From positions 1 to 20,454 of IMG/VR virus record IMGVR_UViG_3300003937_000134: DNA of 20,454 nucleotides. One strand, given 5' to 3'. Positions 1 through 20,183 of this stretch are shown in pieces. Source of the stretch: a virus. Each line of letters begins with the position of its first letter. Position 1 is the first letter of the stretch. A program made the translations under genes and the position numbers. The notes beneath the pieces were generated by a model that was given only the letters and a program-made list of their open reading frames with translations, did not search any database and was not told where the DNA came from.

Positions 1-3000
1 ATTAAATTTATCTAAATAGTTCACATTGTTTGGGAATGAACTTATTTGTAAGCCTGATACACATTGCTGCCAGTATCCAGACTGTGCTCCTTGAGAAGTT
101 TCAGGATTAGCACCTGCCCCAGTAAAGTTTGTTGCTGGTGGAACTACTTCATATATATTACCACTAGGCATTTTTATAACATCTCCTAAATACAAAGTAT
201 TACCAGCTACAAAGTATAAATTTGGATCTGTTATTGTAGTTCCTTGTCCTGGATTTATAATTGATCCTGCAAATGCTTGATCGTTAGCTCCTGTTTTAGG
301 TCCTCCTATTATCCACTTTGAAGAACATGTAGTTAAGCTAGACACGTTTGCAGTTGAAGAGTCTGCACAATTATATATACATTTAGTTCCTCTTTTACTT
401 ACTAAGTACTCTATTAAAATAACTTTCCAAGCATTCATTATAGAACAATCATCTGCTTGACCAGTAACTAACTTATTGTAATACTGAAATCCATTTTTTG
501 CTATACATGCTTCTAATAATCTAATTAATGAGTTAGTATTACTAGGTATACATGGGCTTACTACTGCTGGGTATTTACATGACCCATCATCAAACGCTGC
601 ATTTGGATTAAAATTTAAAGCATTAGGATCTATACATCCTCCATAAATACATGAACCATCATCTAGTGTTGCAGCTGGATCATAATTTGAAGCATTAGGA
701 TCTGTACAACCACATGTTACTGTTGTACTACTAATTGAAAAAGTTTGTGTTTCTGTACATCCCCAGTTATCTGTTATAACAAAGTAGTATACTCCAGAAA
801 CTAATTGTGTAAAAGTTGAAGTTGCAGCTGCAGAATATGTAGTAGGATCTGCATATACTGATACTCCAGCATTTGTAAAATATTCTATTGTTTTAGTTTG
901 TCCTGCCATTATATTACTACCAGGAAATGCAATACTAACAGTTACTGTTCCATCTGCATTACTTGCTCCACAAGTTCCTGTTGCATTTGTTGTAGTAAAT
1001 GAACTTGGTTTACCTTGGTTATTAGGATTACATGGAAAGAAACAACACCCGTCATCTACAGTTGCTACTACAGTAATACCTGCACAATTTACATTGTAAT
1101 TGTAAGCATTAGGGTCTGTGCATCCATATGTTCCATATATACATGAACCATTATTAGTATTAGCAGCTGGGTCATAGTTTAATGCAGTTGGGTCTGTACA
1201 TCCAAGAATTGGAGCTATACAACTTCCATCATCACAAGTTGCTAATGGATCATAATTTATAGCAACTGGATCCATACATCCGTACACACAATAAATACAT
1301 CCTTGATTACAATTAGCTAATGGATCATAATTTAAAGCTGTTGAATCAGTACAACCAAATGTAGCAGTTGAAATTTGTACAGTTGCACTTGTTTGTGTGC
1401 AATCTGGAGAGTTACTGTATGAACTTGTTAGTACTACTCTATAAAAACCATCGTCTACAAAGTTAGTAGAAGTTAATGTTGGTCCTTGCGTATACGTAAA
1501 TTGATATGCAGCATTATTAGTAGGCACATAAGTATTTGTATTTACTACAGTTATTACACCTTGCCAATCTGCATGTTCTAATGTAAAGGTTAATAAATCT
1601 GGTACAGGATCACAATAAAAATCTGCTACTAATTGATTAGTTTGACACGTCTGTGATGGATTTGTTAATGTAGGTTGAGCACAACAAAAACTATTTAATA
1701 TTGAACACATAGACGGATTAGGCCACCATAAAATATCTTCTGCTACTGGTATTATTAATACACCAGGAGGACTATTTGTATTTGTAATAGCTGTGGCATA
1801 ATTACCACTTGCATCTACACATACATTTATAGGTATTGTAAAATAAAATACTTGATAACATTGTTCTACTTCTACTGTAGCATCTGGATCAATAATTGCC
1901 ACTTTTACAGCATAATACCCATAATTTATATTTGTACCTATACTAGCTGTATTCCAAAGTCCAGACCACCCTAAATTAGTGTTGTTTATTAAACTACCTA
2001 CTGTAGAAAAATTAGTTAAATCATTAGAAGCAGCACTATTTTGTGCAGCATCCCAATCAACTTTACTCCCAGTGTTATAAAATTGTAAAGTATATTGTGC
2101 ATTTGCCATTCCATTAGCATCTACAACATCATTTATAAAAGGTTGAAATAAAGCAGTTGGATTAATAAAAGCCATATTAACTGCACCATCATTTGAATTT
2201 GTTCTAAGTGTAGGTGTTGCTATAAATGAGTTTAGACTAGCTAGCGCTATTTCTCCTGCTGTAGGAGCAAGTTGAGAACTAGCATTTATTAAAGTTCCAT
2301 TGTTTGCATTACAATATAAACAAGAACCATCATCTACTACTGCATTTGAATTATAATTTAAAGCTGCTCCATCATTTGTACTAGCATCATTATCTGTACA
2401 TCCTGCTTGACCAACTCCATCTTGTACACATACATCTATGTATGCGTAACAAGGAACTGTAGTATTTGCTCCATTTACACTTTCGTCTCTTACAAATATT
2501 CTATAGCATCCTGCTATAAGACCTGTAGTAAAAGTACCATTATTTGTACTAGGTGGAATTAATGTTGATGTAACACTATTAGCAGTAACTTGCAAAGCTG
2601 TAAGACCTGCAAATGCTGAACTTTGTGTTGTAGTAACTGCATCTTGAGCTAAGTCTTCTTGAAATCCAAATGTAAAAGTATTAACATAATCTTGACCTCC
2701 TAATGGATGAGTTGCGTATCCATACCCTAAAACAACTGGACTTGACATTGAGCCAGTACCTAAACCTCCAATGCTAGTAGCATTTAATGCTTGAATTGTC
2801 CATGCATATCTACCATTACCTGTTTCGTTTCCAGTAGCTGTTCCTATTCCTCCTGAAAATCCTCCATCTAAAACTGTAACCTCTATTATTCCGTCACTTC
2901 CTCCTTGTGTTGTTGCATCTACAGCTATTGCAGATAGGGATAGCCCATTACAATCTGTACAACATGTATTTGGATGATTTTGTGTTACAAAGGTTGCAAG

Positions 3001-4479
3001 ACTAGGATTTGCAACATAATTAATTGGAGTTATTAAATTAGCACCACTACAATCTTCTCCTGTTAATAACCAGTGATCAGTAGATCCTTGATCAGTACAA
3101 ACTGTAAAGGTTGGTCCCGGTGGTGGTGCTGTTGTACAATCTGGAGTATCTTCTGAATATACGTGTACGTTTGAAAATCTAAAACCAACTCCAGTATTAG
3201 CAGCATCAAAAATATAAGGCATACCAAAACCAATTAACATTGACTGTTGTAGTAAGTTTCCTTCTAACCAATCGTATGCATTACCACTTATGTTATTATT
3301 AAAATAGTCACTAGCATTAACTACATTACCTGTTCCTGGAGTAACATTGTTATCCCCATCAAGGTTTGTTATAAAACCTTTGTAATATTGTTCTCCTGAA
3401 TAACCGTCTTCTTGATTACCAGTTGCTCCAAAATTAAATGGTCCATCATTAGAATCAAAAGCCCAGTCATAGTATTTAAAATTATTCCAAGTAAGATTTT
3501 CATGATAACCAGAAGGCATTGTAGTATTATTACCATTGACTGTTTTAAAAAATCCTGCATACATGTAGTCATCATGATTATTTCCAGCGTATCCAATAGA
3601 AACATCACTTACTGATGTGTGCACATGTCCTGAAGTTCCGTCTCCTTGACACCCGTCTGCTCTTACTGAGTTTGTATACGAAGGATGACTAGCACTACCA
3701 TGACTAAGATCTAGATGTGCTGTTCCTGGTAAAATAACTTCAAACTCTCTAGAGTCTCCTCCCGCCCAAGTTACTCTAATTTTTCTTTGAAATGGACAAA
3801 AAGGTAAAGCTGTTCCTAGGTTTTCGTATTCTAAATATATTTGTTTTGAACCTGTAAAAGTTGGATCAGCTAAATAATTAGAAGATTGGTATGAAAGTAT
3901 AGCTTGTGATCCTAAATTATAAGGTTCTATTTCATAATTATTACTAGTTGTTGTAAAATATGGTGCCCCGGGTGAATTAGAAGGTGTTACATCACTAATA
4001 GATACAACTTCATCAAACTCTGCATCTATAGTAAGTGCACCTGTAGTTGAATCTTCTGCTGTAACATAAGCATTTACCTGTACTCTTATAAATGCTGCTG
4101 ATAAACTACCTGATGGAACATAAGGTCCTGCATGTAGTTGTATATGCTTAGCTAATCCTGGAGGTGGAGGTGCTCCAAACATTTGACCTCTTCTATGTTG
4201 AGAAGGTAAACCTGAATATGGAGTTACTCTTAAATTAATTTCTCCATCACCTTCTACTACATCTCCTTTTATATCTGGGGTATCAGACTGTATATCTGAA
4301 TCCGTGTTGTAACTTACAGCTGTTCCAATAGCTCCACCGCCAGAGTCTTCACCTGATGATTCTCCAGAACCAGATGAGGTTTTTTCTTGTTGTTGATCTT
4401 CAGATTGTTCTTGACCACCTCCTTGCTCACCGTATCCTTCTCCTTCTGGGTAGTAAAATATTGGAAAGTATTTAAACAT
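1..4479 (-). CDS. Giant tail adhesin / receptor-binding protein with GCTDP...DDGSC repeats and SprB-like segments (3' end outside window)
   Basis: The frame is open for 1493 codons from the ATG at 4479 to the left edge with no stop, so the C-terminus is missing. The N-terminus is followed by a low-complexity Gln/Glu/Gly/Ser linker (about residues 13-50) and a proline run (APPPPG). The middle is rich in Asn, Thr, Ser, Gly and aromatic residues, as in secreted beta-sandwich proteins. Seven Cys repeats of the form GCTDPxAxNYDPxAxxDDGSC lie at about 693-720, 1042-1143 and 1257-1301. Two stretches resemble SprB-type repeats of gliding adhesins; the clearest ends VSGVYYFVITDNWGCT near 1235-1250. 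No signal peptide or enzymatic motif is seen. Being last in a structural operon, behind a terminator, fits a tail fibre or spike that binds the host surface. The role is inferred; the open frame and repeats are directly visible. Confidence 0.85.
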   Translation of the reverse strand, partial: MFKYFPIFYYPEGEGYGEQGGGQEQSEDQQQEKTSSGSGESSGEDSGGGAIGTAVSYNTDSDIQSDTPDIKGDVVEGDGEINLRVTPYSGLPSQHRRGQMFGAPPPPGLAKHIQLHAGPYVPSGSLSAAFIRVQVNAYVTAEDSTTGALTIDAEFDEVVSISDVTPSNSPGAPYFTTTSNNYEIEPYNLGSQAILSYQSSNYLADPTFTGSKQIYLEYENLGTALPFCPFQRKIRVTWAGGDSREFEVILPGTAHLDLSHGSASHPSYTNSVRADGCQGDGTSGHVHTSVSDVSIGYAGNNHDDYMYAGFFKTVNGNNTTMPSGYHENLTWNNFKYYDWAFDSNDGPFNFGATGNQEDGYSGEQYYKGFITNLDGDNNVTPGTGNVVNASDYFNNNISGNAYDWLEGNLLQQSMLIGFGMPYIFDAANTGVGFRFSNVHVYSEDTPDCTTAPPPGPTFTVCTDQGSTDHWLLTGEDCSGANLITPINYVANPSLATFVTQNHPNTCCTDCNGLSLSAIAVDATTQGGSDGIIEVTVLDGGFSGGIGTATGNETGNGRYAWTIQALNATSIGGLGTGSMSSPVVLGYGYATHPLGGQDYVNTFTFGFQEDLAQDAVTTTQSSAFAGLTALQVTANSVTSTLIPPSTNNGTFTTGLIAGCYRIFVRDESVNGANTTVPCYAYIDVCVQDGVGQAGCTDNDASTNDGAALNYNSNAVVDDGSCLYCNANNGTLINASSQLAPTAGEIALASLNSFIATPTLRTNSNDGAVNMAFINPTALFQPFINDVVDANGMANAQYTLQFYNTGSKVDWDAAQNSAASNDLTNFSTVGSLINNTNLGWSGLWNTASIGTNINYGYYAVKVAIIDPDATVEVEQCYQVFYFTIPINVCVDASGNYATAITNTNSPPGVLIIPVAEDILWWPNPSMCSILNSFCCAQPTLTNPSQTCQTNQLVADFYCDPVPDLLTFTLEHADWQGVITVVNTNTYVPTNNAAYQFTYTQGPTLTSTNFVDDGFYRVVLTSSYSNSPDCTQTSATVQISTATFGCTDSTALNYDPLANCNQGCIYCVYGCMDPVAINYDPLATCDDGSCIAPILGCTDPTALNYDPAANTNNGSCIYGTYGCTDPNAYNYNVNCAGITVVATVDDGCCFFPCNPNNQGKPSSFTTTNATGTCGASNADGTVTVSIAFPGSNIMAGQTKTIEYFTNAGVSVYADPTTYSAAATSTFTQLVSGVYYFVITDNWGCTETQTFSISSTTVTCGCTDPNASNYDPAATLDDGSCIYGGCIDPNALNFNPNAAFDDGSCKYPAVVSPCIPSNTNSLIRLLEACIAKNGFQYYNKLVTGQADDCSIMNAWKVILIEYLVSKRGTKCIYNCADSSTANVSSLTTCSSKWIIGGPKTGANDQAFAGSIINPGQGTTITDPNLYFVAGNTLYLGDVIKMPSGNIYEVVPPATNFTGAGANPETSQGAQSGYWQQCVSGLQISSFPNNVNYLDKFN
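577..711 (-). repeat. Two tandem GCTDP...DDGSC protein repeats (units 6 and 7)
   Basis: In the adhesin frame, 711-649 encodes GCTDPNASNYDPAATLDDGSC and 639-577 encodes a close copy starting GCIDPNALNF and ending DDGSC. They are separated by a short IYG linker. Each unit is 21 residues with Cys at positions 2 and 21, and the DDG resembles a calcium-binding loop. The same unit is common in secreted proteins of marine Bacteroidota; its structure and function are not established to my knowledge. Confidence 0.85.
1045..1356 (-). repeat. Four tandem, partly degenerate GCTDP...DDGSC protein repeats (units 2 to 5)
   Basis: Starting at 1356 the adhesin frame reads GCTDSTALNYDPLANCNQGC, then units beginning GCMDPVAINYDPLA (about 1281), GCTDPTALNYDPAA (about 1203) and GCTDPNAYNYN (about 1125). 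Units 3 and 4 keep the 21-residue spacing. Unit 2 replaces DDGSC with NQGC, and unit 5 carries an insertion before DDGCC. The decay of outer copies suggests an old tandem duplication. A further isolated, longer unit lies at 2320-2403. Confidence 0.85.
2320..2403 (-). repeat. Isolated GCTD...DDGSC protein repeat (unit 1) with an insertion
   Basis: The adhesin frame reads GCTDNDASTNDGAALNYNSN followed by AVVDDGSC. It is the same unit as the downstream repeats with about seven extra residues after GCTD. It sits directly after the first SprB-like segment, suggesting a module boundary. Confidence 0.75.
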
Positions 4480-5502: not shown

Positions 5503-6435
5503 TTACAGTATAACGTTAGGAAATACTCCTGCGAAATATGCGTTAAGTTTATTTTCTACAATTAAACTATCAGCATCACCTGCTTTTAGTCCAAGAGTAA
5601 CTTCAATTAAATTATCTACTCCGTGAATTTGTGAAGAAGAAGAACCATCTTTAGTTGCTGTAATATTATACATATCGTATAAAGTACCTGTAGCTACTTG
5701 ATTAGTTGGCTTAATAGGAAGATTACGTCTTTCGTAGTAACCATATTGAGATCCCATTAATGTATCTTCATATTCTTGTAAATAGAAACCATCACCAGAT
5801 CCTCTTGATCCTGCAGTTTGTACACTTTCAGCCATTGTAGTTCCGTTACCGTTACCATCAATAGCTTCAAAAGATAATTCCATTTCTACTAAATTTTCTT
5901 GAACTGAACCATCAGCTTTAGTTTCACCTTTTTTGAAACCTGTAAAATCAATACTAGATCCATTGTTAGTAATACTATTTACCCAATGAGGTAAATCAGC
6001 ATTAATAGCTGTAGTAAAAGCTGTACAGTGAACTGTTACAGCCGAAGCAGCAGCTACAGTAATAGTATATGATTTACTTTCAAATGGTGAGTTACCATTT
6101 GTTTTATTCATAACTTTTAAAGTATGTTGTCCAGCTGCAGTTGCAGCAGTAGCAAAAGTTGCTCTTTTTACTTGGGCTGCTTGAGCAGCTCCTACTTTTC
6201 CGCTATAATCTACTACATCTCTTCCGTAAAACCAAGGAGTTGCAATATTTTTTCCATCAGATCCACCACCTACAATTCTAATTTGTGGAGCATCTGCGAA
6301 TGTATCCCCAAGTACTAATTCTGTAGGTCCTGATTCGCTCATTTTTTGTACGGAAACTGCACCATCATCAACTAACCCACCTGTAAGTGAACCAGATAAT
6401 GAAGTACCATCTCCTACTATTAAATGTCTTGCCAT
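5503..6435 (-). CDS. Probable major tail or minor virion structural protein
   Basis: This 310-residue protein has a Gly/Ser/Ala-rich N-terminus (LIVGDGTSLSGSLTGGLVDDG) and then beta-rich sequence with SYTITVAAASAVTV near the middle. The C-terminal part keeps defined motifs such as YGYYERRNLPIKP and LIEVTLGLKAGDADSLIVENKLNAY. The acidic, Asn/Gly-rich, Cys-poor composition fits a self-assembling virion protein. It follows the connector-like 375-residue gene by 24 bases and precedes the small beta-rich protein. I do not recognise a named family. A tail-tube, tail-sheath-like or head-fibre role is possible. The leader AAAATATAAAAAAATG lacks a Shine-Dalgarno sequence. Confidence 0.75.
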   Translation of the reverse strand: MARHLIVGDGTSLSGSLTGGLVDDGAVSVQKMSESGPTELVLGDTFADAPQIRIVGGGSDGKNIATPWFYGRDVVDYSGKVGAAQAAQVKRATFATAATAAGQHTLKVMNKTNGNSPFESKSYTITVAAASAVTVHCTAFTTAINADLPHWVNSITNNGSSIDFTGFKKGETKADGSVQENLVEMELSFEAIDGNGNGTTMAESVQTAGSRGSGDGFYLQEYEDTLMGSQYGYYERRNLPIKPTNQVATGTLYDMYNITATKDGSSSSQIHGVDNLIEVTLGLKAGDADSLIVENKLNAYFAGVFPNVIL

Positions 6436-6459: not shown

Positions 6460-7587
6460 TTATTCATTTTTATTTACCTCTATTTGATGAGTTTGATACC
6501 TTGGATCTGAGATCCCTTCAAGTATGCTACTCACTGTCATGTCCACTATCTCTTGATGACAGTGTTCGGGTAATTCACAACTAATCCCCAAAGATAACGA
6601 AATCTTAGAGGGTTTTCTTATATATGTTATTTTCAAAGCGTCTATTATAAATATATCACTCGTGTACATATCTATAGCATTACCACGTATTGTGTATAAT
6701 GGGTCTGTGTGTTTGGTTGTATTAAAAGGATCTGTTAGCAATGTAAAAATATCATCTTGCTGTGCAAAGGTGCTACTAACTGTAACTTCTACAGGATCTG
6801 AATTTAATACTCTTTTTTCTTTTAAATTTGCTGCTGAATATAAAGGAGTTTGACTTTGTAGATGTGATCCTCCAGAAGCTACATTAACTAAAGTTGTTAC
6901 TGTACCTACTGATGCATCCCACTCTAACCAAGAAAATACATTTGGATCTGGAACTACAATAAATTGTCCTTGATAGTTTAGTTCTCCAAACTGTTCCCAG
7001 TATATTGAAAAACCTGTTCCTGGGTTATCTAATATATTTCCTTTAACACCATTTATATCTTGTGGAAATGTGTAGCTATTATTGTTTTGCCAAACTATAG
7101 CTTGTCCTTGTGTTAAATCACTAGCGTCTTCATACATTACAATTGAATTTGCAATTGAAGAGTTGTTGTTACAAACAAATGAATCTAAAGAAATAGTAAA
7201 AAATAATACAGGTGTAGGCTCATTTAAAAAATAATCTATTTGACTACAGCTATCGTTTCTATGAACTCTAGCTAAAGTGTTAACTAAATATAAATAGTCA
7301 GGAGGTAAAGTAAAAGAATCAATAGAAAACTTAACTCCTAATGTTTCTTTAAAATTTACAGAAGCCTCATACTCTCTTACTAATGATCTTAAATCATCAA
7401 TACGTTTTTGGGACTCTTCAAATCCTTTCCTATACTTATTATTTTTACCATACTTTGTATTAATAAATCTCATTTGAGACTTATTTAATTCTATATCTAT
7501 TTCTTGAGGTAAAAGCAAATCAGCTTGGAGTGAATTTATTTTATCCACTCCTTGCTGTATTGCTAAATGCATTTCTTGTACATTCAT
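6460..7587 (-). CDS. Putative head-tail connector / ring protein
   Basis: The 375-residue product begins with an all-helical segment (residues 1-75; motifs LNKSQMRFINTKYGKN and RIDDLRSLV). A motif LPPDYLYLVN (about 94-103) and a beta-rich central domain follow. The C-terminus has ITYIRKPSKISLSLG and an acidic helix (HCHQEIVDMTVSSILEGISD). This helix - PxDYL - beta - YxRKP - EIVDxxV pattern is one I associate with neck or ring proteins in crAss-like and related Bacteroidota phages, but I cannot verify that here. Its gene starts one base after the stop of the 270-residue gene, so the two are probably translationally coupled. The place after the capsid gene fits a connector. Confidence 0.72.
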   Translation of the reverse strand: MNVQEMHLAIQQGVDKINSLQADLLLPQEIDIELNKSQMRFINTKYGKNNKYRKGFEESQKRIDDLRSLVREYEASVNFKETLGVKFSIDSFTLPPDYLYLVNTLARVHRNDSCSQIDYFLNEPTPVLFFTISLDSFVCNNNSSIANSIVMYEDASDLTQGQAIVWQNNNSYTFPQDINGVKGNILDNPGTGFSIYWEQFGELNYQGQFIVVPDPNVFSWLEWDASVGTVTTLVNVASGGSHLQSQTPLYSAANLKEKRVLNSDPVEVTVSSTFAQQDDIFTLLTDPFNTTKHTDPLYTIRGNAIDMYTSDIFIIDALKITYIRKPSKISLSLGISCELPEHCHQEIVDMTVSSILEGISDPRYQTHQIEVNKNE

Positions 7588-7588
7588 A

Positions 7589-8401
7589 TTATACTAATGA
7601 TAATTCTTTTAGTTTAGCTCTTAATAATGTTAATTTACCAGAGTTCTTTTTATCTTTTAAGAATACAACTGTATCTTGTGTTGTATCTCCTAATGTCTCA
7701 TCAATAAAAATAATCTGATTTCCTATCTTTCTTAAAACTCCAGCTGTAACCATTTCTTCAATTTCAGCTTTTAATTCTAAATTCTTATCTGTAGCAATTC
7801 TAACAAATTTCTTTGGATTAGCATTTTTAAGTTCATATAAAGAATTTTCAATTTGTTCTACTGTCATTCTATCAGGATTAGTATTAGAAATTAATCTTAA
7901 TACTCTCTTCATAGCTTTTTCATTAGAGGACATCTTAATAAATTCTTTATCTGCATCTTTTTTCATTTGTATTTCATTATTCTTAACTTTATCATCTCGT
8001 GTAAGGTCTTGAATATAAAATCTTTTATTAAAATCTGAATCCATTTCTTTTTTAGTCATGGCTACATGCGGATGTTTTAATGCAAACCTATATTTAATAT
8101 AATCCATTATACTAAGAGGATTGTCATTATCATCCATACCTATTTCTAGTTCTACCCCAGTAAATCCAATTGGGATTGTAAGTTCTGCCCAAAATTGTTT
8201 AGAATGTTTAGGCCAATCATTGTGCTCTGGACTAACATCTAAAATTCCTTGCATATACTTTTTTTCTTCTTCAGGGGTAAATCCTTTTAGGGGTTGTCTA
8301 TTTACATAAACGCTGCTTAGCTTATATATAGCTTCAGCTCTTACTGCTTTAGGCAAATGGTTTAATAATTCCTTTTGTCTAAGTGTTACTTTTTTACTCA
8401 T
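7589..8401 (-). CDS. Conserved-type phage structural-region protein, function unknown
   Basis: The 270-residue product is soluble and charged, with no membrane segment or Cys. The N-terminal 65 residues contain KGFTPEEEKKYMQGILDVSP. A central segment reads WAELTIPIGFTGVELEIGMD followed by SIMDYIKYRFALKHPHVA. The C-terminal half is helical and Lys/Glu-rich, ending in a small domain (VLRKIGNQIIFIDETLGD). I recall this layout (a 'GILDVSP'-like motif, then 'DYIxYRFxLxHPxVA') in uncharacterised proteins near capsid genes of Bacteroidota phages, without an assigned role. It is the first gene after the hairpin behind the capsid gene. It could be a capsid accessory or neck protein. Confidence 0.75.
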   Translation of the reverse strand: MSKKVTLRQKELLNHLPKAVRAEAIYKLSSVYVNRQPLKGFTPEEEKKYMQGILDVSPEHNDWPKHSKQFWAELTIPIGFTGVELEIGMDDNDNPLSIMDYIKYRFALKHPHVAMTKKEMDSDFNKRFYIQDLTRDDKVKNNEIQMKKDADKEFIKMSSNEKAMKRVLRLISNTNPDRMTVEQIENSLYELKNANPKKFVRIATDKNLELKAEIEEMVTAGVLRKIGNQIIFIDETLGDTTQDTVVFLKDKKNSGKLTLLRAKLKELSLV

Positions 8402-8539: not shown

Positions 8540-9994
8540 TTAAGATGCTGTACAAGTGATGTCTAATGAAGTATCAAATCTCTTAAGAGCGATACCTGCA
8601 GTTTTCAACATATGTACAGACGCCCCGTCCACATCAGAAGCTCTAGCGGAAGTTGAATCAAATCCTCTAGGGACTACAGATCCAGCTACACACCATCTCA
8701 TTGCTTCACGACCTTTCTTAGAAATCATCTGAAGGTTATTTTGACCATCATAATTTGATTGATCAACAAATACCATTCTGTAAGATTCTAAAGAGTATCC
8801 TGTAATAGGGTGTTTTGCACGAGCTTGCGCCACGGCACCATGATCAAATAATGGTAATTTTACCACATTGATTGTGTGTCCATCTACATGCTCATAGGAT
8901 GTGAAGTATCCAGTTAATCCTAGGTTACGTCCTGAACCTGTGATAAATCTGTTTTCTCCACCTACTTTCCAAGATCCAGAAGATCCTGAGAAATGATTTT
9001 TAAGAGCTTCATCAAATTCTCTTGCACCACCAGTACCAGTATATAAAGTTACTTGTTTAGTTGCTGCATCAGTCATTCCGTAGAATAAATCTCCGATGAT
9101 GTTCTTAAGTTTAGCTTCAGTCATTACAGAGTAAGTGTCAGTATTAACAATTTGCTCTAAAAGACCAGGACCAACGATTACAGGCTGTCCATTCTCATCT
9201 TTCATGTGAGTATGTCCGTTTGAATCGTAAGTTTTTTGACCATACCAATAATACATTTCACACTCTTCTTTAAAGTCAAGCATGTGTAAGTACTCCTCAT
9301 AGTCCATCCAAAGTTTAGTAGTAGATCCACCTTTAGTTGGTAGAGCAAATTCTGCTACAAAATCTTTAGCGTTTCCAGACATGTGGTAAGATTTTCTAAC
9401 TGTAGTTAGTTTGTTTCTTACTAATCCTGGAGTTTCCCAATTAGATGCATTACCTCTAGAGAAATCAACTCCTACAGGTGCATACATTTGAGCCCAAAGC
9501 GCTCCTGCAGTAACATCTGCTGCTGCAACTGTTGCTGATGGTGCTGGGTTTACTAATTGTAAAGTGTATTTCCATTGAGATCCTCCAGCTACTTGCTGTG
9601 GCTCTTTCATAATACGTGCTTGAGTACCTGCTTGAGATACTAATACGTATGGGAATACAAAATGCTTGTCTGGGAAAGTAAGCTCGAAGCTTGCTCCTCC
9701 TAAACCAACATTTGATGTGCTAGTCATTGTTGCTGCTACTGGTCTCGTTCTCAATCTATGTGTTGCCACACGATATTCATACTCCAAGCGATCAATAGAC
9801 TTTGTGTTTCCAACACCTTCTGTTAAGAAAGATAGTGGAAATCTTTTGTCATCTTTACCTGCTAAATGAGTAATAATTGGAGACAGTTCAGTAGGTTTAG
9901 ATAACAATGCATTAGCAAGACTGTTCATATCAGTCATTTGCGAATCATTGTAAAACGTCTTTTGAACGCTTATATTTGTTCCATTTACTGCCAT
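8540..9994 (-). CDS. Major capsid protein
   Basis: The 484-residue protein has the size and style of HK97-fold major capsid proteins of crAss-like and Cellulophaga-type phages. There is an N-terminal arm with a PLSFLTEG motif (53-60). The following segments are rich in Gly, Ala and aromatic residues (SFELTFPDKHFVFPYVLVSQAG), and a Gly/Ser-rich loop carries WKVGGENRFITGSGRNLG. The C-terminal part includes TGYSLESYRMVFVDQSNYD. No protease motif or cleavage site can be assigned. It directly follows the scaffold-like gene and is followed by the strong hairpin at 8462-8507, typical of a highly expressed capsid gene. Its codons look visibly less A+T-biased than neighbouring genes, fitting high expression. 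Assignment rests on motif style and synteny. Confidence 0.85.
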   Translation of the reverse strand: MAVNGTNISVQKTFYNDSQMTDMNSLANALLSKPTELSPIITHLAGKDDKRFPLSFLTEGVGNTKSIDRLEYEYRVATHRLRTRPVAATMTSTSNVGLGGASFELTFPDKHFVFPYVLVSQAGTQARIMKEPQQVAGGSQWKYTLQLVNPAPSATVAAADVTAGALWAQMYAPVGVDFSRGNASNWETPGLVRNKLTTVRKSYHMSGNAKDFVAEFALPTKGGSTTKLWMDYEEYLHMLDFKEECEMYYWYGQKTYDSNGHTHMKDENGQPVIVGPGLLEQIVNTDTYSVMTEAKLKNIIGDLFYGMTDAATKQVTLYTGTGGAREFDEALKNHFSGSSGSWKVGGENRFITGSGRNLGLTGYFTSYEHVDGHTINVVKLPLFDHGAVAQARAKHPITGYSLESYRMVFVDQSNYDGQNNLQMISKKGREAMRWCVAGSVVPRGFDSTSARASDVDGASVHMLKTAGIALKRFDTSLDITCTAS

Positions 9995-11217: not shown

Positions 11218-13371
11218 TTACCAGCATCCATACTTACATTTCTTTTTAAATCCTCCATATTCAAAAGGTACACATTTGTCTTTTCCATTCTCTGTTCCTG
11301 CATATCTATAACCATCCCAACAAGCTTTACCGTCTGCTCCTTTCTTTTTACCTCCTGTTTTAAAAGCTTCACGATAAGATTCTATATATTGGCTTGGTGT
11401 TTTATTTTTTCCTGGTAATTTAAATTCTGTACCATGTCTAAGAGATCTAAAATAATCTATAGCTCCTTGCCTACCTGTTAGATTACTCATAGCTGCAATC
11501 TCATTAAAAGTAAGATCTTTATTTACATCTGAATATTTCTTTGATAAATATTCTGCATTATCTTTTAATCCTGGAATGCCTTGTAATTCTCCTCTCCACC
11601 TCATATCAAGAATTGTATTTTGTAAAGTTGTATCTGCTGCAAACTCTTTTCTACTTATATTTTTTAATAAAGGAATATCTTTTATTTCATTATATAATTG
11701 ACCATACAATCCTGTAGCAGAACTTGATGAATTCATCATGTTAACTCCATCACTACTCTCTACTCTTCTTAAACCTTTTTTAACTTCCCAAGGAGCTCCT
11801 TCTTCATTGTCTATCATATTTGGAAAATCTTGAAAACCTCCTAATTTTTTTTCTGATGCTGCTCCTGCACCTACAGCAACTGGCACTGCAGCCCATGCTT
11901 TTCCTATAACATCTTTCATTTGTTTTGGAGTAGCGTCTGCCAGTCTAATAAGCATTTCTACATCATGAGGAACTTCTGATTTTGATACAGATTTAATAAG
12001 TCTACGTATCATACCATCTGTTAAATTATTTGGGTTTCCATCCCACTTTGCATTTTGTTTTAACCACTCTCCAGTTCTTACAAGTCTTACTTGTTGTTCT
12101 GCAGGATTTCTCATATAGTTACCAGTTATTTCTTTTTTTATTTTAAGAGTAGGATAGTTTTTATAAGCTTCTTTAGAAACAAATTTATCATACTGATTAG
12201 GTATTGGAGCATCTGGATTAGCAACTTTCATTTTTCCTGCAGGACTTCCAGCATGTCCAATCTCATGTTTTATTACATCCATTGTTTCGTCACTTAGATT
12301 TGTTCCGTAACCTCTTTTTACATACATTCTTCCAACCTCTCCAGATGGGGCTCCATAGTATTGTCCAAAAGCGCCTTTCATTCGCATCTTTGATATTTCA
12401 TTATCAAAAAACTCCAGATTTATAGGAGCTTCATTTACCTCTTTTATATAGGTATCAACATCTGCTTTAACTGTTGGCAAACTTTCTCCTGTATTAGCCA
12501 TTCTTTTAGATGCATACTCATCACTTTGTAAATATTTTATCTGGTTTAGTTTTGCTTTAGAAACTTTTATTTTATCACCTTTACTTAATTTATTAGGATT
12601 AAAAGGCCCAGCTGCCATTTCTTCAAAAGAAGTATTATTTATTAAAGACCTATCGTCGTACTTAGGAAATTTTGCCTTTGATAAATCTGTAGAAAGTGGA
12701 TTTTTTTTAAATAAATTTTTTAATTTACCATATCCTTTTGCAACAGGTCCTAATAAAACATCATCTATAAGTCCTGGTATTTTTGCTCCTGATGCTGATA
12801 CTTTCATACTATTTAAGAAAGGAACAGGTGCAGCAAAACCTAAAATAGTTTCACCATAATCTTGAGACTTTTCTTTAGCCTCACCACTAGCATACATTTG
12901 ATTAGATGCTCCTGAGATCCATTGTTTATTAGGATTATTACCTGTAAATTTATCATAGTAATTACTAATAGTGCCTCCTGAAGTATTACTATTTGCCACC
13001 ATTTGTTGAATTTGTTCCAACTTAGTTAAAGGTGTTTCTATTGTTGGGATATTAAAATTTTGAGATACATATGTAGAAGAAGGTTCTGCTGTATGTAATC
13101 CTCCATGAGATTTTTTTACTCCTCCTTCTTTAGCTAGTTGAGTAGGTAAAGATGCAGTGCTATCTACTAAATTAGATGGTAAAGCTGATGTAGTTTCTAA
13201 GTCTACATCTACAGGTTGAGGTGATTGTGGAATGTTAATAGGTTCCTGCGTAGGTGCAGGATTTTGCATAGGTTCAGTAGAAAGCTGACCTCTAAGTGCT
13301 GCAATTATATCTCCAGAGTCAGAAGCTTTTACTTGTTCTAGTATTGCTCTTCTATCTTGGTTTGTTAGCAT
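11218..13371 (-). CDS. Large virion protein with HEIGH metallopeptidase-like motif and lysozyme-like segment
   Basis: The 717-residue protein has several parts. Residues 1-170 are disordered and Pro/Ser/Thr/Gln-rich. A short Gly/Ala/Val hydrophobic stretch (about 176-215) follows. Near 360-375 lies MDVIKHEIGHAG, a clear HExxH zinc-peptidase motif (H369, E370, H373), with NPAEQQVR (about 422-429) as a possible source of a third ligand. Near 534-562 RRVESSDG...SSSATGLYGQLYNEI resembles the catalytic Glu motif of goose-type lysozyme or lytic transglycosylase, with E538 as the candidate. A later helix reads FNEIAAMSNLTGRQGAIDYF. A Cys/Gly/Lys-rich tail ends in CKYGCW. The start overlaps the portal 3' end by 20 bases. 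It is probably a virion-associated entry or maturation enzyme. The motifs are visible; the activities are inferred. Confidence 0.8.
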   Translation of the reverse strand: MLTNQDRRAILEQVKASDSGDIIAALRGQLSTEPMQNPAPTQEPINIPQSPQPVDVDLETTSALPSNLVDSTASLPTQLAKEGGVKKSHGGLHTAEPSSTYVSQNFNIPTIETPLTKLEQIQQMVANSNTSGGTISNYYDKFTGNNPNKQWISGASNQMYASGEAKEKSQDYGETILGFAAPVPFLNSMKVSASGAKIPGLIDDVLLGPVAKGYGKLKNLFKKNPLSTDLSKAKFPKYDDRSLINNTSFEEMAAGPFNPNKLSKGDKIKVSKAKLNQIKYLQSDEYASKRMANTGESLPTVKADVDTYIKEVNEAPINLEFFDNEISKMRMKGAFGQYYGAPSGEVGRMYVKRGYGTNLSDETMDVIKHEIGHAGSPAGKMKVANPDAPIPNQYDKFVSKEAYKNYPTLKIKKEITGNYMRNPAEQQVRLVRTGEWLKQNAKWDGNPNNLTDGMIRRLIKSVSKSEVPHDVEMLIRLADATPKQMKDVIGKAWAAVPVAVGAGAASEKKLGGFQDFPNMIDNEEGAPWEVKKGLRRVESSDGVNMMNSSSSATGLYGQLYNEIKDIPLLKNISRKEFAADTTLQNTILDMRWRGELQGIPGLKDNAEYLSKKYSDVNKDLTFNEIAAMSNLTGRQGAIDYFRSLRHGTEFKLPGKNKTPSQYIESYREAFKTGGKKKGADGKACWDGYRYAGTENGKDKCVPFEYGGFKKKCKYGCW

Positions 13372-15634
13372 TCTGTTTTGCTATTTCTTTTTTACTTTGT
13401 ATGTCTTCTCTTTTAATTGCATTAGAATCAAGCTCTCCTTGCATTTTTAACTGTAGTTCTTGCTCTTTTAATTCTAATTCTCTTTTTCTAAGCTCAAAAT
13501 CTTGTACCATTTTTTCTAAGTTAAGAGAATTAACATCTGTTTGATCTTTAGACTCTGCGCCTATTAAGGCTATCTCAATATCTTTTTGTCTATCTTTTTC
13601 TCTCTCAATATTTTCAGCTTCTAATTGCATTTGTTGAGCTTCTAGCTGTTGTTGTTGCATTTGTTGCTGTGCTTCTTGTTGAGCTTGTTCTAATTCAGCA
13701 TTTGCTTTATCTGCAATTTTAAGATTCTTTTTAATTTGTGTAAAGCTATCAGAATCTAACATCTCGGCTATGTCTCCTGGCTTAGCACCATTTTGCATCA
13801 TAGCTTGTGTTAATCCTTTAATGTTTTGTAGTTTTTCTTGATCTTTACCAGCATCAGAAACAAATATACCATAATTAGACTCCATATGCTCTAAACTATT
13901 TATATCTAAAAAATCAGTTGTTCCATCAGGTAATACAAACATTCCTCTCTTACCTGTTAACCATGCTTCTTTAGAATAATCTAATAATGCTTGAAAATCT
14001 CTTTGTTCCATTCTTTCAAACTTTCTAAATAGATCTTCTGTAATATGTGATGATTGTAATATAGCTTGTTGTGAAGATGCTTTACCTTCATACGCTCCAA
14101 TCTCACCTTGTCTTTGTCTACTTACTCCAGATATTTTTTCCCACTCTACTAAAATAGAATCTAGTAAAGTAATGTATTGACTTATAGTTTTTATAGACAT
14201 ATCCATAACAGATTGATGTTGTGGATTTAGTTGTATACCTTCTTTGTTATAATCTACCCAAGCAATACCTGTACCTTCTACATAGTACATAAATTTGTCC
14301 ATATCCCATTTTTTAGGGATCATGTTAATATCAAACTGTGCAATTATATCTTTACTCCTTGCTATTGCAAGTTCTAATCTGTATTTGTAAATATTATAAT
14401 TTAACTGATAAGGTATACCAAGTTTAACTAAAGATATATTTTTAGAATTTGTATCAGAGTATCTTCTACCGTTAATAGGCAGTTTACATTTAGAAGGATT
14501 TTCTAAAGACATTCTTTGATTAAGAATTGGGTTTATATTTACATAAAATCTACCATCTATTCTTGTACCTTCCCATACTTCATTAACCCACTTAAATTCT
14601 AAATTACCTCCTAATTCTTTTAGCTCTGCAGGCATTTTAAAACCATCTTCAACTTCTATTTCTTCAACGTCACCTGTTGCTGGATCTATATAACTTAAAA
14701 ATCCTATTCTTTTTCTAGATTTCCAATATACATTTACAACTTCTACTAATCTATTCCTAAATGCATTTGTATCTTTATTTGCTGAGTTAGCATACAAAAA
14801 AGAAATGTCACTTTCAGAATGTCTTGGTTCTTCTAGTTCTAAAATTTGTTGTTCTGTTAAACTTTCATAATAAGCATCAATAACTGTAGATGCATGTACA
14901 TATTTTCTAACTAATGCCCAATCTCCGTCTTCTACAAATTCTAAATCTGGGTCAAGGTCATAATCTACATCTAAAGGATTTAATATTTCATAAAAAGGCT
15001 CACTGTTTCTTACACCTCTGTGTGTGTATGCTTCTCCAGTAACTAAATAATGAAACCAAGCTTTTTGCACTTTATCATATACCTCTTGTTCTTGAAATAT
15101 ATAATTCATAGCTTGTTGCCCTAAAACTGCTCTAGAATCTATATAATTTACTTCAAACATTTCAGCAATATGTTGAGGAGTTGGTATTTCATCCATATTT
15201 GCCCCTATGTCTACACCTTGTGCTTGTACTTCTTGTAAAAACTTTTGTCTTAAATTTTGAGCTATTGCCTCAGACTTTTGTTGCTCTTTCATAGTAATAG
15301 CATCTGAGTTTTGAACTGTAACAGTATAATTGAGAGGTCTTTTAGATTTTTCCCCTAGAAGAAGATCAATTATGGGTTTGATAATGGGGTAATTACGCAT
15401 TTCAGAAGGAAAGTTCTTACGGGATTTTCCGTAAGGTTTTAGTACGTAATTATAATCAGCCTCGTCAATTACACCGTTATAGTAATCATATAATATTTTT
15501 AAATCGTCCTTTTGCTTAGAGTGACTAGAGCCAGAACTAGAGAGATCTATAAATGCTTCTACACATTCTTCTCCCCACTTTTTATTTTTTTTAGTAATCG
15601 AAAGCTTTTGCCTCGGTATTTTATCGTATCCCAT
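13352..15634 (-). CDS. Portal protein
   Basis: The 760-residue product matches the large portal proteins of crAss-like and related phages in size and motif style. There is an N-terminal helical region and the motif NYPIIKPIIDLLLGE (81-95). A long alpha/beta body follows, with NEVWEGTRIDGRFYVNINP and a stem-like region containing EKISGVSRQRQGEIGAYEGK. The C-terminal 120 or so residues form a Gln/Glu/Lys coiled-coil (EAQQQMQQQQLEAQQMQLEA), as expected for the barrel and crown of large portals. It forms the dodecameric vertex through which the terminase pumps DNA. It sits downstream of the terminase and SET genes, and its end overlaps the next gene by 20 bases. The leader carries a TAAATTTG box. 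Confidence 0.85.
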   Translation of the reverse strand: MGYDKIPRQKLSITKKNKKWGEECVEAFIDLSSSGSSHSKQKDDLKILYDYYNGVIDEADYNYVLKPYGKSRKNFPSEMRNYPIIKPIIDLLLGEKSKRPLNYTVTVQNSDAITMKEQQKSEAIAQNLRQKFLQEVQAQGVDIGANMDEIPTPQHIAEMFEVNYIDSRAVLGQQAMNYIFQEQEVYDKVQKAWFHYLVTGEAYTHRGVRNSEPFYEILNPLDVDYDLDPDLEFVEDGDWALVRKYVHASTVIDAYYESLTEQQILELEEPRHSESDISFLYANSANKDTNAFRNRLVEVVNVYWKSRKRIGFLSYIDPATGDVEEIEVEDGFKMPAELKELGGNLEFKWVNEVWEGTRIDGRFYVNINPILNQRMSLENPSKCKLPINGRRYSDTNSKNISLVKLGIPYQLNYNIYKYRLELAIARSKDIIAQFDINMIPKKWDMDKFMYYVEGTGIAWVDYNKEGIQLNPQHQSVMDMSIKTISQYITLLDSILVEWEKISGVSRQRQGEIGAYEGKASSQQAILQSSHITEDLFRKFERMEQRDFQALLDYSKEAWLTGKRGMFVLPDGTTDFLDINSLEHMESNYGIFVSDAGKDQEKLQNIKGLTQAMMQNGAKPGDIAEMLDSDSFTQIKKNLKIADKANAELEQAQQEAQQQMQQQQLEAQQMQLEAENIEREKDRQKDIEIALIGAESKDQTDVNSLNLEKMVQDFELRKRELELKEQELQLKMQGELDSNAIKREDIQSKKEIAKQNANKPR

Positions 15635-15711: not shown

Positions 15712-16047
15712 CTACAAATAATTACATATATCGTATAAACTATATTTTAGCGTCAGCTCTTCTCCTGCCTCTACTTTACGTAATGTTTTTATTATTTTAT
15801 AATGATAATCTTCGTCTTTATCTAGTAATTCACAGTTAGCATCCTCATTGTGGTTAAGAAATCCACCTAATGGGGTCCTAATGTAATTGTGTTGAAAATT
15901 TGGATCATAAATGTGTGTAATACCTATAACAACCTCTCCCGGAATATCTTCTTTTGCTAGGATCCCTGCTCCATGTATATTTGATGGTCCAATCGCCAAG
16001 TATTCTGGTAGAGGGTTATAAGGTTCACAATCTTTTTTCTTATTCAT
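15712..16047 (-). CDS. SET-domain protein, putative protein-lysine methyltransferase
   Basis: The 111-residue protein is a nearly bare SET domain. It shows the opening motif IHGAGILA (24-31), the central GGFLNHNEDANC (61-72, matching the NHs.xpN cofactor-binding motif) and the closing AGEELTLKYSLY (94-105), with Y102 in the position of the catalytic Tyr. Pre-SET and post-SET Cys clusters are absent. This family transfers methyl groups from S-adenosylmethionine to lysines in proteins; viral SET proteins of similar small size are known from algal viruses. It starts one base after the terminase stop and lies upstream of the portal, so it is embedded in the packaging cassette. Its substrate is unknown: a virion protein or a host DNA-associated protein is possible. 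Confidence 0.85.
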   Translation of the reverse strand: MNKKKDCEPYNPLPEYLAIGPSNIHGAGILAKEDIPGEVVIGITHIYDPNFQHNYIRTPLGGFLNHNEDANCELLDKDEDYHYKIIKTLRKVEAGEELTLKYSLYDICNYL

Positions 16048-16048
16048 A

Positions 16049-18013
16049 TTAATAATAGTTTTGTTCGAACCACTTATCTGTAGCTCTGTCTTCTAATATA
16101 TCTTTAACTTCAGCATTATAGAGTTCCCTTGTGTGATACATCCCAATCATTAATGACATTACACGGTCAAAGTTACCACTATGATTAAACTTAATTAATT
16201 CTGTTAGCAAAGCCGGATCATAGATTTTATGTAAATTTAATAATTTTTTTCCCGTATCATCAGTACTCCTAACTGTATTTAGCCAGTCTCTTATATATAT
16301 CTCACCTTGACGCTTCCTTGCTTCTGTCATATGCATCCCATATTGACGTTTTACGTTCTTACTCCTTAATTCTTTTTTGTCTAACATCTCAAACTCTTCT
16401 TGTAGTTTATGCATCTTTCTAAATCGTTTTGCATAAGCTATTACTTCTCCCCTATCATTCTCAAAGCCAATTTTACAACCATAATAGTCTGCTAACATAA
16501 ACAAATTTCTGTTATAATCATCTTGCGTGTGTGGTCTCCCTACATATGACGCTACAATTATATCATCTGGTTGAGATACATTATTAGGTCTTTTTAAAAC
16601 ATATGCTGATCCTAAAGACATAGAATCTGCAGATTGATTTTGACCATAAGGGTCATGGCAAATTACATATAGATTTAATGGTACTTGTTGCTCTTGATTT
16701 TTATATGGGGCTTCATATATTACAACTGCCCCTGTTTTATCATCATCTTTTCTATGTGGGTATTTAGTTATAGGTTTTAAATCCCCATCTATTTTAAATT
16801 TAACTTTTCCGTCTTTATCATGATAAAAATTACCTGCTGTACCTATTGCTTGTAAATTTCTAGCTTTTACATTATTATATTGTTCTTGTAATGACGCAAT
16901 ATCAAATAAATTAGCTGTTACTTGTAATGTTGCTTCTTGAGGTGAGAAGGGATGCTCAGCTATATATTGGTCTAAAGATTTTGCATCTGCAGCACCCTTT
17001 TTCTTCTCCCTCATTTGTTCTTCATATTCTATAGCATCTTGTTGCATAGAATTACCATTATCATCTATAAATCCATCTAAATTCTTTTGTATTGGGATAA
17101 AATACCCACATCTTGTACCCATTGCACCCTCATCCCATATGTTTTCATAATCCATACAATCATATGCTGCTGGATTATAAAATATTTCTTCCATAGCCTC
17201 AAAATCAGATCCTTCTGTACCACCTGTACCAAAAGCTACCATCATACCTAATGTTTTAGCACCTTGTCTCATTGTTGGCATTGTTACCTCCCATGCTTTT
17301 AACAATCCTGGAAATGATCCTGCTTCTTCAAAGAAAACTAGCTCACCTGCCTTACCCCTTACTTTATCTGGGTTATCTTTTAGTGATACCCCTATTATTT
17401 GAGACTTCATACCCATCTCTATCTCCATTCCGTTTACTTTCTTCTTATATCCAGACATTTTATGCATCTCTCTGTCTCTTAGTCTAGGTTGAGCCCATGC
17501 AGTATGGTCATCTATAAAAGATAAAAACTCCCAAGCTTTTGAGAGTAGTCCATCACCAATTAAAAATTCTTTAGAGGATGCAAATACAAAGTTTTTACTA
17601 TTCCTAACAAAGAAATAGTTTCTAGCAAGCATAGATCCTGCTTTGTAAGAGTATCCCTTACGTCTTGCTTTTAAAACTATCATATGTTTATTCTGTGCTC
17701 TAGCTTTATCTATTTCATGGAAGTATTCATAGTCTCCATCATAAAATCTAGGAAATGTACGCTCACGTCTAGCTTGTAATGTACCATCTGGCATTAATTC
17801 ATCTACAGCTCGATCAATAGGACAATAATTTAAGTAGAAATAGTGAAATCCAGTAATATGTAAGTCATCTACTTTATAACCATACATACATCGCTTGTGC
17901 TCTTCATCCCAAAACTCATAATACTCTCTTGTTCCAGGAAGAGCAGATGTATAGTGACCACTAGCTATAAATTTAAGGGCTCCCGGCCTGACTTTGTCTG
18001 TTTCTTTAAGCAT
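16049..18013 (-). CDS. terL: Terminase large subunit (DNA-packaging ATPase/nuclease)
   Basis: The 654-residue protein shows the terminase order of motifs. A Walker A-like segment KARRKGYSYK (115-124) is followed by Walker B ELVFFEEAG (224-232) and a coupling motif FGTGG (261-265). The linker motif EHPFSPQEA (353-361) precedes an RNase H-like nuclease with acidic motifs CHDPYG (452-457), FENDRGE (517-523) and NFDRVMSLMIG (615-625). It cuts concatemeric DNA and pumps it through the portal. The phosphate loop lacks the canonical GK[ST], having GYS instead. The start overlaps the upstream gene by 49 bases; no other Met occurs until residue 43, inside the conserved region, so the long start is preferred. 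Confidence 0.93.
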   Translation of the reverse strand: MLKETDKVRPGALKFIASGHYTSALPGTREYYEFWDEEHKRCMYGYKVDDLHITGFHYFYLNYCPIDRAVDELMPDGTLQARRERTFPRFYDGDYEYFHEIDKARAQNKHMIVLKARRKGYSYKAGSMLARNYFFVRNSKNFVFASSKEFLIGDGLLSKAWEFLSFIDDHTAWAQPRLRDREMHKMSGYKKKVNGMEIEMGMKSQIIGVSLKDNPDKVRGKAGELVFFEEAGSFPGLLKAWEVTMPTMRQGAKTLGMMVAFGTGGTEGSDFEAMEEIFYNPAAYDCMDYENIWDEGAMGTRCGYFIPIQKNLDGFIDDNGNSMQQDAIEYEEQMREKKKGAADAKSLDQYIAEHPFSPQEATLQVTANLFDIASLQEQYNNVKARNLQAIGTAGNFYHDKDGKVKFKIDGDLKPITKYPHRKDDDKTGAVVIYEAPYKNQEQQVPLNLYVICHDPYGQNQSADSMSLGSAYVLKRPNNVSQPDDIIVASYVGRPHTQDDYNRNLFMLADYYGCKIGFENDRGEVIAYAKRFRKMHKLQEEFEMLDKKELRSKNVKRQYGMHMTEARKRQGEIYIRDWLNTVRSTDDTGKKLLNLHKIYDPALLTELIKFNHSGNFDRVMSLMIGMYHTRELYNAEVKDILEDRATDKWFEQNYY

Positions 18014-19693: not shown

Positions 19694-19926
19694 TTTTTCT
19701 TAATTTTTGCAATACCATCTGCTATTTCAATAATAGATGTTCTAGATTGCTTGTTAAACTCTACTATATAAGGTTCTATCTCTGAACGGCTACTCATAAA
19801 AGACAAAAACACCTGTAATTCTTTTATTAACAGTTCTGTATTCTCCCTTAATTCTGCAGTTTTTTTAGCTGAGTCTACTAAACTATGGTAATCTTCTAAA
19901 CTTAGAGTAACCTGTCCTGTTACCAC
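19690..19926 (-). CDS. Small helical protein, function unknown
   Basis: The 78-residue product is predicted almost entirely helical, with heptad-like stretches (YHSLVDSAKKTAELRENTEL and LLIKELQVFLSFM) and a second helix ending in IAKIKKK. It has no Cys or membrane segment. It overlaps the co-chaperonin 3' end by 7 bases and the next gene by 4 (ATGA), so it is embedded in a coupled operon. A coiled-coil adaptor or small assembly factor is plausible, but nothing specific supports that. Confidence 0.68.
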   Translation of the reverse strand: MVTGQVTLSLEDYHSLVDSAKKTAELRENTELLIKELQVFLSFMSSRSEIEPYIVEFNKQSRTSIIEIADGIAKIKKK

Positions 19927-20183
19927 TTACCTAATATTTGGTGTTCTGAAATAACTAAGTATAACTCACCATCTATCTCTGTTCTTGCAGCTTCTGATCT
20001 AGGATCTACCATTACAATATCACCTTTTTCTACAAAGTTACAATGAGGCCCAACAGCAAGCGCCTCCAAAACGTTTGATCGCTTTGCATTTTCCTTAGCT
20101 GTAGTTTCATCTAAGATTATTTCTGTTTGTGTAATTACTGGGTCCGGAAGGACTATCCAGCTTCCGCTTGGTTTAAAATTCAT
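19920..20183 (-). CDS. GroES-like co-chaperonin
   Basis: The 87-residue product follows the GroES plan. An N-terminal strand WIVLPDPV leads into a mobile-loop region EIILDETTAKENAKR. Then come the hallmark VLEALAVGPHCNFVEKGDIVMVD (a barrel strand with the VGP turn and the KxGD motif) and the C-terminal IDGELYLVISEHQILG. GroES has about 95 residues; the shortening lies around the mobile loop. Phage relatives such as T4 Gp31 replace GroES on host GroEL for folding of the capsid protein. It is the first gene after the promoter and heads the operon that later encodes the capsid protein, so a capsid-folding role is likely. The start lies about 10 nt downstream of the predicted transcription start. 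Confidence 0.88.
   Translation of the reverse strand: MNFKPSGSWIVLPDPVITQTEIILDETTAKENAKRSNVLEALAVGPHCNFVEKGDIVMVDPRSEAARTEIDGELYLVISEHQILGKW

Follow-up and report, generated by a model that had tools for sequence, protein, structure and literature searches.

A cysteine-rich repeat protein among the structural genes of a marine crassvirus, and a putatively exported partner with the same kind of repeat

The window, by which we mean the whole stretch of 20,454 bases analysed here, is a virus contig and a fragment, with its main genes on the minus strand. It comes from a marine crassvirus, and a tree of 13 portal sequences, of which two are partial and two have stops replaced by X, places this phage beside the Intestiviridae with a support of 0.927. 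Its capsid shares 29-32% identity, and its portal protein 29-34%, with the listed phage records. The original prediction had taken the giant gene at one end of the window to encode a virion protein, and this gene does lie within a crassvirus structural cluster, with capsid, portal, terminase and ring genes in the same window:

1..4479, minus strand: giant repeat protein, a putative virion fibre or adhesin, 1493 of 1538 codons (from the frame and comparison with contig L002)
4491..5018, minus strand: 175-aa Cys-rich protein, adjoining the giant gene also in L002-L009 and L012; position of gp98 in Cellulophaga phage phi14:2
5097..5474, minus strand: variable gene of 125 aa, possible decoration protein
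5503..6435, minus strand: 310-aa protein at the position of the crass capsid auxiliary protein, with a weak match to phi14:2 gp99 (E 0.048)
6460..7587, minus strand: crass tail ring protein 3/4 (PF25710, E 7e-11)
7589..8401, minus strand: homologue of crAss001 gp33 and phi14:2 gp101
8540..9994, minus strand: crass major capsid protein (PF23898, E 3e-82)
13352..15634, minus strand: crass portal protein (phrog_6547, E 5e-124)
16049..18013, minus strand: terminase large subunit (phrog_6681, E 3e-136)

The order capsid, gp33-like protein, ring protein, auxiliary position, variable 125-aa gene, 175-aa gene and giant gene recurs in relatives. The 125-aa gene is 99.2% identical in locus L013, whose giant protein is only 32% identical, and it therefore seems to have been exchanged apart from its neighbours. 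Several further genes deserve mention. The one after the portal gene (11218-13371, minus strand) encodes 717 aa, a length that ranges from 717 to 1028 aa across five phages compared; it carries an HEIGH motif in the window phage and in L008 and may be a cargo or peptidase region. A SET-domain protein (PF00856, E 8e-8) is encoded between the terminase and portal genes (15712-16047, minus strand), and a GroES-like co-chaperonin (phrog_3188, E 1.7e-7; PF00166 below cut-off) at 19920-20183, also on the minus strand.

The frame of the giant gene had been described as unbroken over 1493 codons, which is borne out: it runs on the minus strand from an ATG at 4479 to position 1, contains no stop and is open at the window edge. 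Leftward extension, as had been suggested, was possible in contig L002, which is 99.92% identical to the window across 11,224 bp and reaches almost 9 kb beyond it. The stop lies 45 codons past the window edge, such that the full protein has 1538 aa. Cysteine makes up 3.4% of it (52 residues) and 6.9% of its 175-aa neighbour; a 481-aa neighbour and the capsid, ring and auxiliary-position proteins have 0.3-1.1%. The parts of the giant protein are the following, all on the minus strand:

3145..4257: N-terminal domain, residues 75-445, candidate receptor-binding part (domain profiles, conservation)
2944..3144: short Cys-containing linker, residues 446-512 (domain profiles)
2404..2943: residues 513-692, an unsupported candidate for a second SprB-like segment (profile-profile comparison)
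2320..2403: DDGSC repeat 1 (this and the other repeats from the repeat pattern)
1705..2310: middle domain, residues 724-925, common to L013, L014, L037 and L039-L044 (domain profiles)
1357..1692: Ig-like beta sandwich, residues 930-1041 (structure model of modest confidence)
1297..1356: DDGSC repeat 2, degenerate
1219..1281: DDGSC repeat 3
1141..1203: DDGSC repeat 4
1042..1125: DDGSC repeat 5, with an insert and the ending DDGCC
712..1002: SprB-repeat-related Ig-like segment, residues 1160-1256 (profile-profile probability 97.1; structure model)
649..711: DDGSC repeat 6
577..639: DDGSC repeat 7
1..567: conserved C-terminal domain, residues 1305-1538, cut by the window edge; putative virion anchor (domain profiles)

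As a whole, the giant protein has nothing similar in a collection of 50,697 phage records; five records match it, each only in stretches of the repeat region. For the giant protein, a Pfam scan at E ≤ 1 gave one unrelated family only and no BACON domain, and PF17116 stayed below cut-off (E 0.14).

With respect to the repeats, the seven GCTDP...DDGSC copies of the original prediction are indeed present as seven GC-x-D...DDGSC units, one of which (1356-1297) is degenerate. A strict pattern recovers six of them; when the giant protein was shuffled 2000 times, this pattern was found 0.0025 times on average and never more than once. No Pfam or NCBIfam model for the repeat was found above cut-off, and the papers listed in a search of the open-access literature for the DDGSC string were unrelated by title. 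The module had furthermore been recognized as typical of marine Flavobacteriales proteins, and this holds in that 45 of 48 cellular loci with a repeat region (L067-L114) bear a Bacteroidota label, the remaining three being one Glaciecola and two labelled bacterium. The two of these loci that were scanned, L067 and L071, encode repeat proteins that both end in T9SS type A sorting domains, and comparison shows that the giant protein shares its repeat and Ig-like/SprB-like modules with host exported proteins. An extra cysteine before the DDGSC is seen in 33 of 91 units from giant phage proteins and in 35 of 336 cellular units; at the same site in 68 exported units, cysteine falls outside the five commonest residues.

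Two SprB-like segments had also been proposed, of which one stands. In a profile-profile comparison with 19 host SprB domains, residues 1160-1256 reached a probability of 97.1, whereas the candidates for a second segment reached 41.7 (residues 510-692, over 32 columns) and 33.7 (residues 925-1042), and four control segments scored 0.1-0.3. Judging from sequence profiles, one domain of the giant protein is hence related to SprB. The Pfam SprB model (PF13573) had no match in the window at E ≤ 1, and hence none over its curated cut-off; the same lax search gave matches in eight of 14 control genomes. In another crass lineage, a 1313-aa protein on the contig of L017 (106500-111500) carries three SprB repeats over the Pfam cut-off.

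The structural check proposed beforehand yielded weak models. AlphaFold gave a mean pLDDT of 45.5 for residues 720-1538 (nine sequences) and of 35.6 for residues 60-720 (12 sequences), the latter model being unusable. Within the former, the better-modelled parts (about 930-1041 and 1161-1250) are Ig-like sandwiches, a fold common to phage fibres and surface proteins. Foldseek and VIA-align 2 matched this model to many unrelated Ig/FN3 proteins at Z of about 10, and for this reason we claim only that these parts are Ig-like. The best match was CTLA-4 (Z 10.7, rmsd 2.4, 95 residues); the lambda central tail fibre also appeared, with a Z of 10.5 but an rmsd of 23.6 over both domains. There was no SprB chain among the structural matches listed, which carries no weight either way.

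Relatives of the giant protein were collected from viral contigs in overlapping sets, 20 loci by the whole protein, 32 by the C-terminal and 14 by the N-terminal domain, and 30 giant proteins were then scanned with domain profiles that had been built on the ten closest relatives. The C-terminal domain was found, whole or in part, in 22 of the 30, with only some 80-90 residues matching in L045, L047, L051 and L053. In L014, L037 and L020 it is encoded instead by an ORF of its own immediately behind the giant gene, though in L020 this ORF covers just the first 60 residues; L016-L019 and L021 have no ORF that matches the domain. The N-terminal domain is full length only in ten of the 30, the closest relatives, and L014, L037, L041 and L042 show short partial matches (E from 7e-4 to 2e-7). 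The 14 giant proteins found via the C-terminal domain, i.e., independently of the repeats, all carry at least two repeats; a truncated giant protein outside the set of 30 (L046) carries one. Neither the N- nor the C-terminal third matched anything in the 48 cellular loci, which were picked by repeats, and the capsid, portal, terminase and ring genes had no match there either. An end that is conserved and sometimes has a gene of its own, together with an opposite end that is variable, fits an anchor and a tip, and suggests a virion-anchored fibre with a variable tip.

In this context, the comparison with phi14:2 is instructive. Downstream of its capsid gene, this phage has gp101, gp100 (the ring protein), gp99, gp98, gp97 (1276 aa) and gp96, of which gp96-gp100 are annotated as structural from MS/MS. 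In the window, the 175-aa protein stands where gp98 does and the giant protein where gp97 does, likewise following the ring and auxiliary genes, the difference being one extra small variable gene that precedes these two in the window. No sequence homology was found between window proteins and phi14:2 gp96-98, and phi14:2 is not among the five phage-collection records that match the giant protein. The 175-aa and 481-aa neighbours and the 352-aa protein (the last is described below) have no known phage homologue over the thresholds used; the 481-aa protein has a weak tail-fibre PHROG match (E 4e-4). Going by gene position, and with none of the 30 giant proteins starting like a signal peptide, the giant protein would best be read as a virion fibre.

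Taken together, we think it probable that the giant protein is the adsorption fibre of a marine crassvirus, with a C-terminal dock, a stalk of modules exchanged with Bacteroidota and a variable specificity tip. The conserved C-terminal domain would attach the fibre to the particle, the DDGSC repeats and the Ig-like and SprB-like domains would form a stalk stiffened by disulphides, and the variable N-terminal 440 residues would carry host-range specificity. Stalk and tip are not visible in the structure models because these are weak. Docking by the C-terminus would be the reverse of the polarity of crAss001 gp22, which docks by its N-terminal residues 1-26 (PMC10172136). As for the stalk modules, we propose that they were exchanged at some time with Bacteroidota surface proteins, in either direction.

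The repeats could also be a general-purpose spacer outside the cell, passed freely between marine phages and bacteria, that carries no signal of mimicry or capture, and we regard this as a real, if somewhat doubtful, possibility. They may be spacers rather than mimicry because degenerate units also occur in gp232 of the Synechococcus phage S-CAM3 (516 aa, annotated as virion structural), whose gene clusters with tail fibre and collar genes. It has two units similar to window repeat 2 (50.5% identity across query 1041-1117; E 7e-4), but they are degenerate and lack the DDGSC end, and S-CAM3, unlike the window phage, belongs to the Kyanoviridae and has a cyanobacterial host; outside the repeats, gp232 does not match the giant protein. 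Free movement would also agree with the presence of repeats in the giant proteins of L016-L019 and L021, which are without the C-terminal domain, with the Glaciecola locus, and with the finding that 13 of 197 background genomes, whose taxonomy is not stated, contain one or more matches at E ≤ 1e-6. These genomes are unusable as taxonomic evidence, since two surveys meant for separate phyla listed the same ones apart from the central genome (13 with matches and the 20 shown that had none). Against a generic spacer, dense arrays are rare among 198 genomes, since the matches concentrate in G038 (a Bacteroidetes single cell, 35 matches), G088 (39) and G084 (7), with one match each in 11 others. 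Furthermore, for the 31 repeat units of the phage clade, considering 21-letter units only and thus leaving out the inserted or degenerate window repeats 1, 2 and 5, the closest one from beyond the clade is a cellular unit in 18 cases, a unit of another giant phage protein in ten and a tie in three. This, too, counts against a generic spacer, though it is no proof of descent, since 337 of the 499 units in the pool are cellular.

It is unlikely that the virion wears host-adhesin modules in order to join or hide in the gliding-adhesin layer. Candidate hosts do carry both module types, with 16-95 SprB matches in each of five genomes behind such cellular repeat loci and the DDGSC array of G038, and one segment of the giant protein is SprB-related. 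However, this is the only SprB-like segment, a cyanophage also has the repeat units, and the hosts are themselves presumptive. We infer that they are marine Flavobacteriales; a single-cell genome, AG-426-M23 (three contigs), was considered as a case of phage inside host and rejected, only repeat-bearing stretches of the 48 cellular loci matching phage queries. The giant protein also differs from the SprB gliding adhesin in having no PF13573 match, no start that resembles a signal peptide and no sorting tail over cut-off. None of the 30 giant proteins has such a start when judged by a crude hydrophobicity rule, and the sorting-domain model TIGR04183 reached only 14.6 bits in the window (cut-off 23), inside the SprB-like segment, with no match at the true C-terminus in L002. 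By these sequence features, the giant protein does not look like T9SS cargo. It is very improbable that the giant protein is not a fibre but one that is ejected or carried as cargo: crassviruses do store cargo proteins in head and tail (PMC10172136), but 52 cysteines, repeats of exported proteins and a variable N-terminus would fit the outer surface better.

Beyond the window edge, L002 encodes a second repeat protein in company with two smaller proteins:

L002 13257-14315, plus strand: 352-aa protein resembling an outer-membrane barrel; its C-terminus, EGKYNKYWNREWYDFKFG, is highly conserved
L002 15140-15469, plus strand: thioredoxin-fold protein with a leader (PF00085 match)
L002 15471-18671, plus strand: 1066-aa repeat protein with a hydrophobic leader ending in GQ

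The 1066-aa protein has 15 repeats by one pattern and 12 by another, and its tail reads '...DLLGRP...KNQLLFYRYNDGSVNRKIIIKK'. That it and the giant protein are recent copies of each other is unlikely, because an exported-protein unit is nearest outside the clade for none of the 31 giant-protein units. Against the 1066-aa protein, PF20785 stayed below cut-off (E 7e-4). Among 12 loci that have the C-terminal domain and continue for 7 kb or more past the giant gene, such a protein is present in 11, the exception being L020; the 12 include two near-duplicate pairs, L007/L012 and L047/L048. The N-terminal domain of the 1066-aa protein, used as a query, led to 18 viral contigs, all of them with leader and repeats; a crass portal is present in nine, and the other nine, five of which are under 25 kb, count as crass by IMG/VR classification. 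The same domain had a single weak match in six cellular genomes (E 5e-5, 28% identity). One of the contigs, G247 (129 kb), has the exported ORF running off one end and an ORF matching TIGR04183 near the other (L171), and may for this reason be circular.

Combining 13 downstream repeat ORFs with 15 from the N-terminal-domain search gives 28 loci, leaving out the leaderless repeat ORFs of L014 and L037, which are their separate C-terminal-domain genes. A leader followed by a small residue and Gln is present in all 28. None of the 17 virion controls has a leader, and ten of them fit the loose Gln pattern when it is taken by itself. The leader rule is crude and picks up some neighbours as well, e.g., the 481-aa protein in L004. 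A small residue and Gln after the leader correspond to the Bacteroidetes Q-rule (PMC10653852). All 24 complete C-terminal ends carry a host-type tail, 11 the short one and 13 a T9SS type A domain. TIGR04183 scores over the NCBI cut-off in all 13 of the latter and in one of 14 control genomes. One of the 13 lies on the 119.8-kb contig of L017, from a different crass lineage, and its N-terminal domain is 88% identical to that of L002. The short tail, which is the one in L002, has no NCBIfam match; at E ≤ 0.01 it was matched in all six cellular genomes compared, and the genomes of three candidate hosts gave 16, 7 and 19 matches. In 20 stretches from these three genomes, 25 ORFs match it, 23 of which end at most six residues from the match and 18 of which start like signal peptides by a crude rule. 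On these sequence grounds, the second repeat protein looks built for export from the infected cell.

Its neighbours recur as well. In the 18 stretches from the N-terminal-domain search, a thioredoxin-like protein is found in 18, the barrel-like protein in 16 and an SNase-type nuclease in nine, in varying order; across 28 phage records including L002, the barrel-like protein is present in 26, ending in Phe in 21 of them, and the thioredoxin-like protein in 25. The CXXC site is replaced in all 25 thioredoxin-like homologues, mostly by NxxN. We read the 352-aa protein as a putative barrel from its leader and C-terminal Phe. Nine members of its family, compared with Pfam at E ≤ 1, gave only DUF1642, in one member, and no match to PF11751, which we take to be the model of the PorP/SprF outer-membrane partner. 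The barrel-like protein was not found in seven cellular genomes in a search that had no positive control. Neither it nor the N-terminal domain of the exported protein has a match in the 50,697-record phage collection, and cultured models therefore seem to be missing. Our reading of these genes is that they may form a set that puts the repeat protein on the infected cell. More specifically, but only tentatively, we suggest a surface-display cassette beside the fibre genes, composed of a repeat protein exported via Sec and the type IX route, the barrel-like protein, the CXXC-less thioredoxin-fold protein and often a nuclease, which would remodel the host surface and in which two types of host sorting tail have been swapped on one phage protein family.

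How does this compare to known systems? PMC6949934 describes crass-like phages with tandem repeats of BACON (PF13004) near tail genes, some of them beside proteins with T9SS sorting domains. The window phage resembles these in that a crass-like phage protein is built of tandem modules of Bacteroidetes surface proteins, and one such phage cluster also has T9SS sorting-domain proteins. It differs in that the phages are marine, the modules are a Cys-rich DDGSC repeat and an SprB-like domain, and the exported partner bears the same kind of repeat. Likewise, PMC7468147 reports Cryophage genes with T9SS type A sorting domains, which are thought to use the host system. The cargo there consists of enzymes and a PA14 protein in variable genes; the protein described here carries DDGSC repeats, ends in either of two tails and belongs to a cassette that recurs. 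No description of DDGSC repeats in phages, or of the export cassette, was found in the open-access literature, as judged from titles and abstract openings.

Fibres made of host modules (PMC6949934) and phage T9SS cargo (PMC7468147) are thus already in print, and the idea of a crass-like fibre built from host surface modules is here carried over to marine phages and another repeat. What comes as a surprise is the exported repeat-protein partner rather than the fibre. If our reading is true, display of a module of the virion-fibre type could exclude competing phages or keep progeny off spent cells. This raises the testable question whether phages alter the surface of the infected cell via the type IX route that is specific to Bacteroidota.
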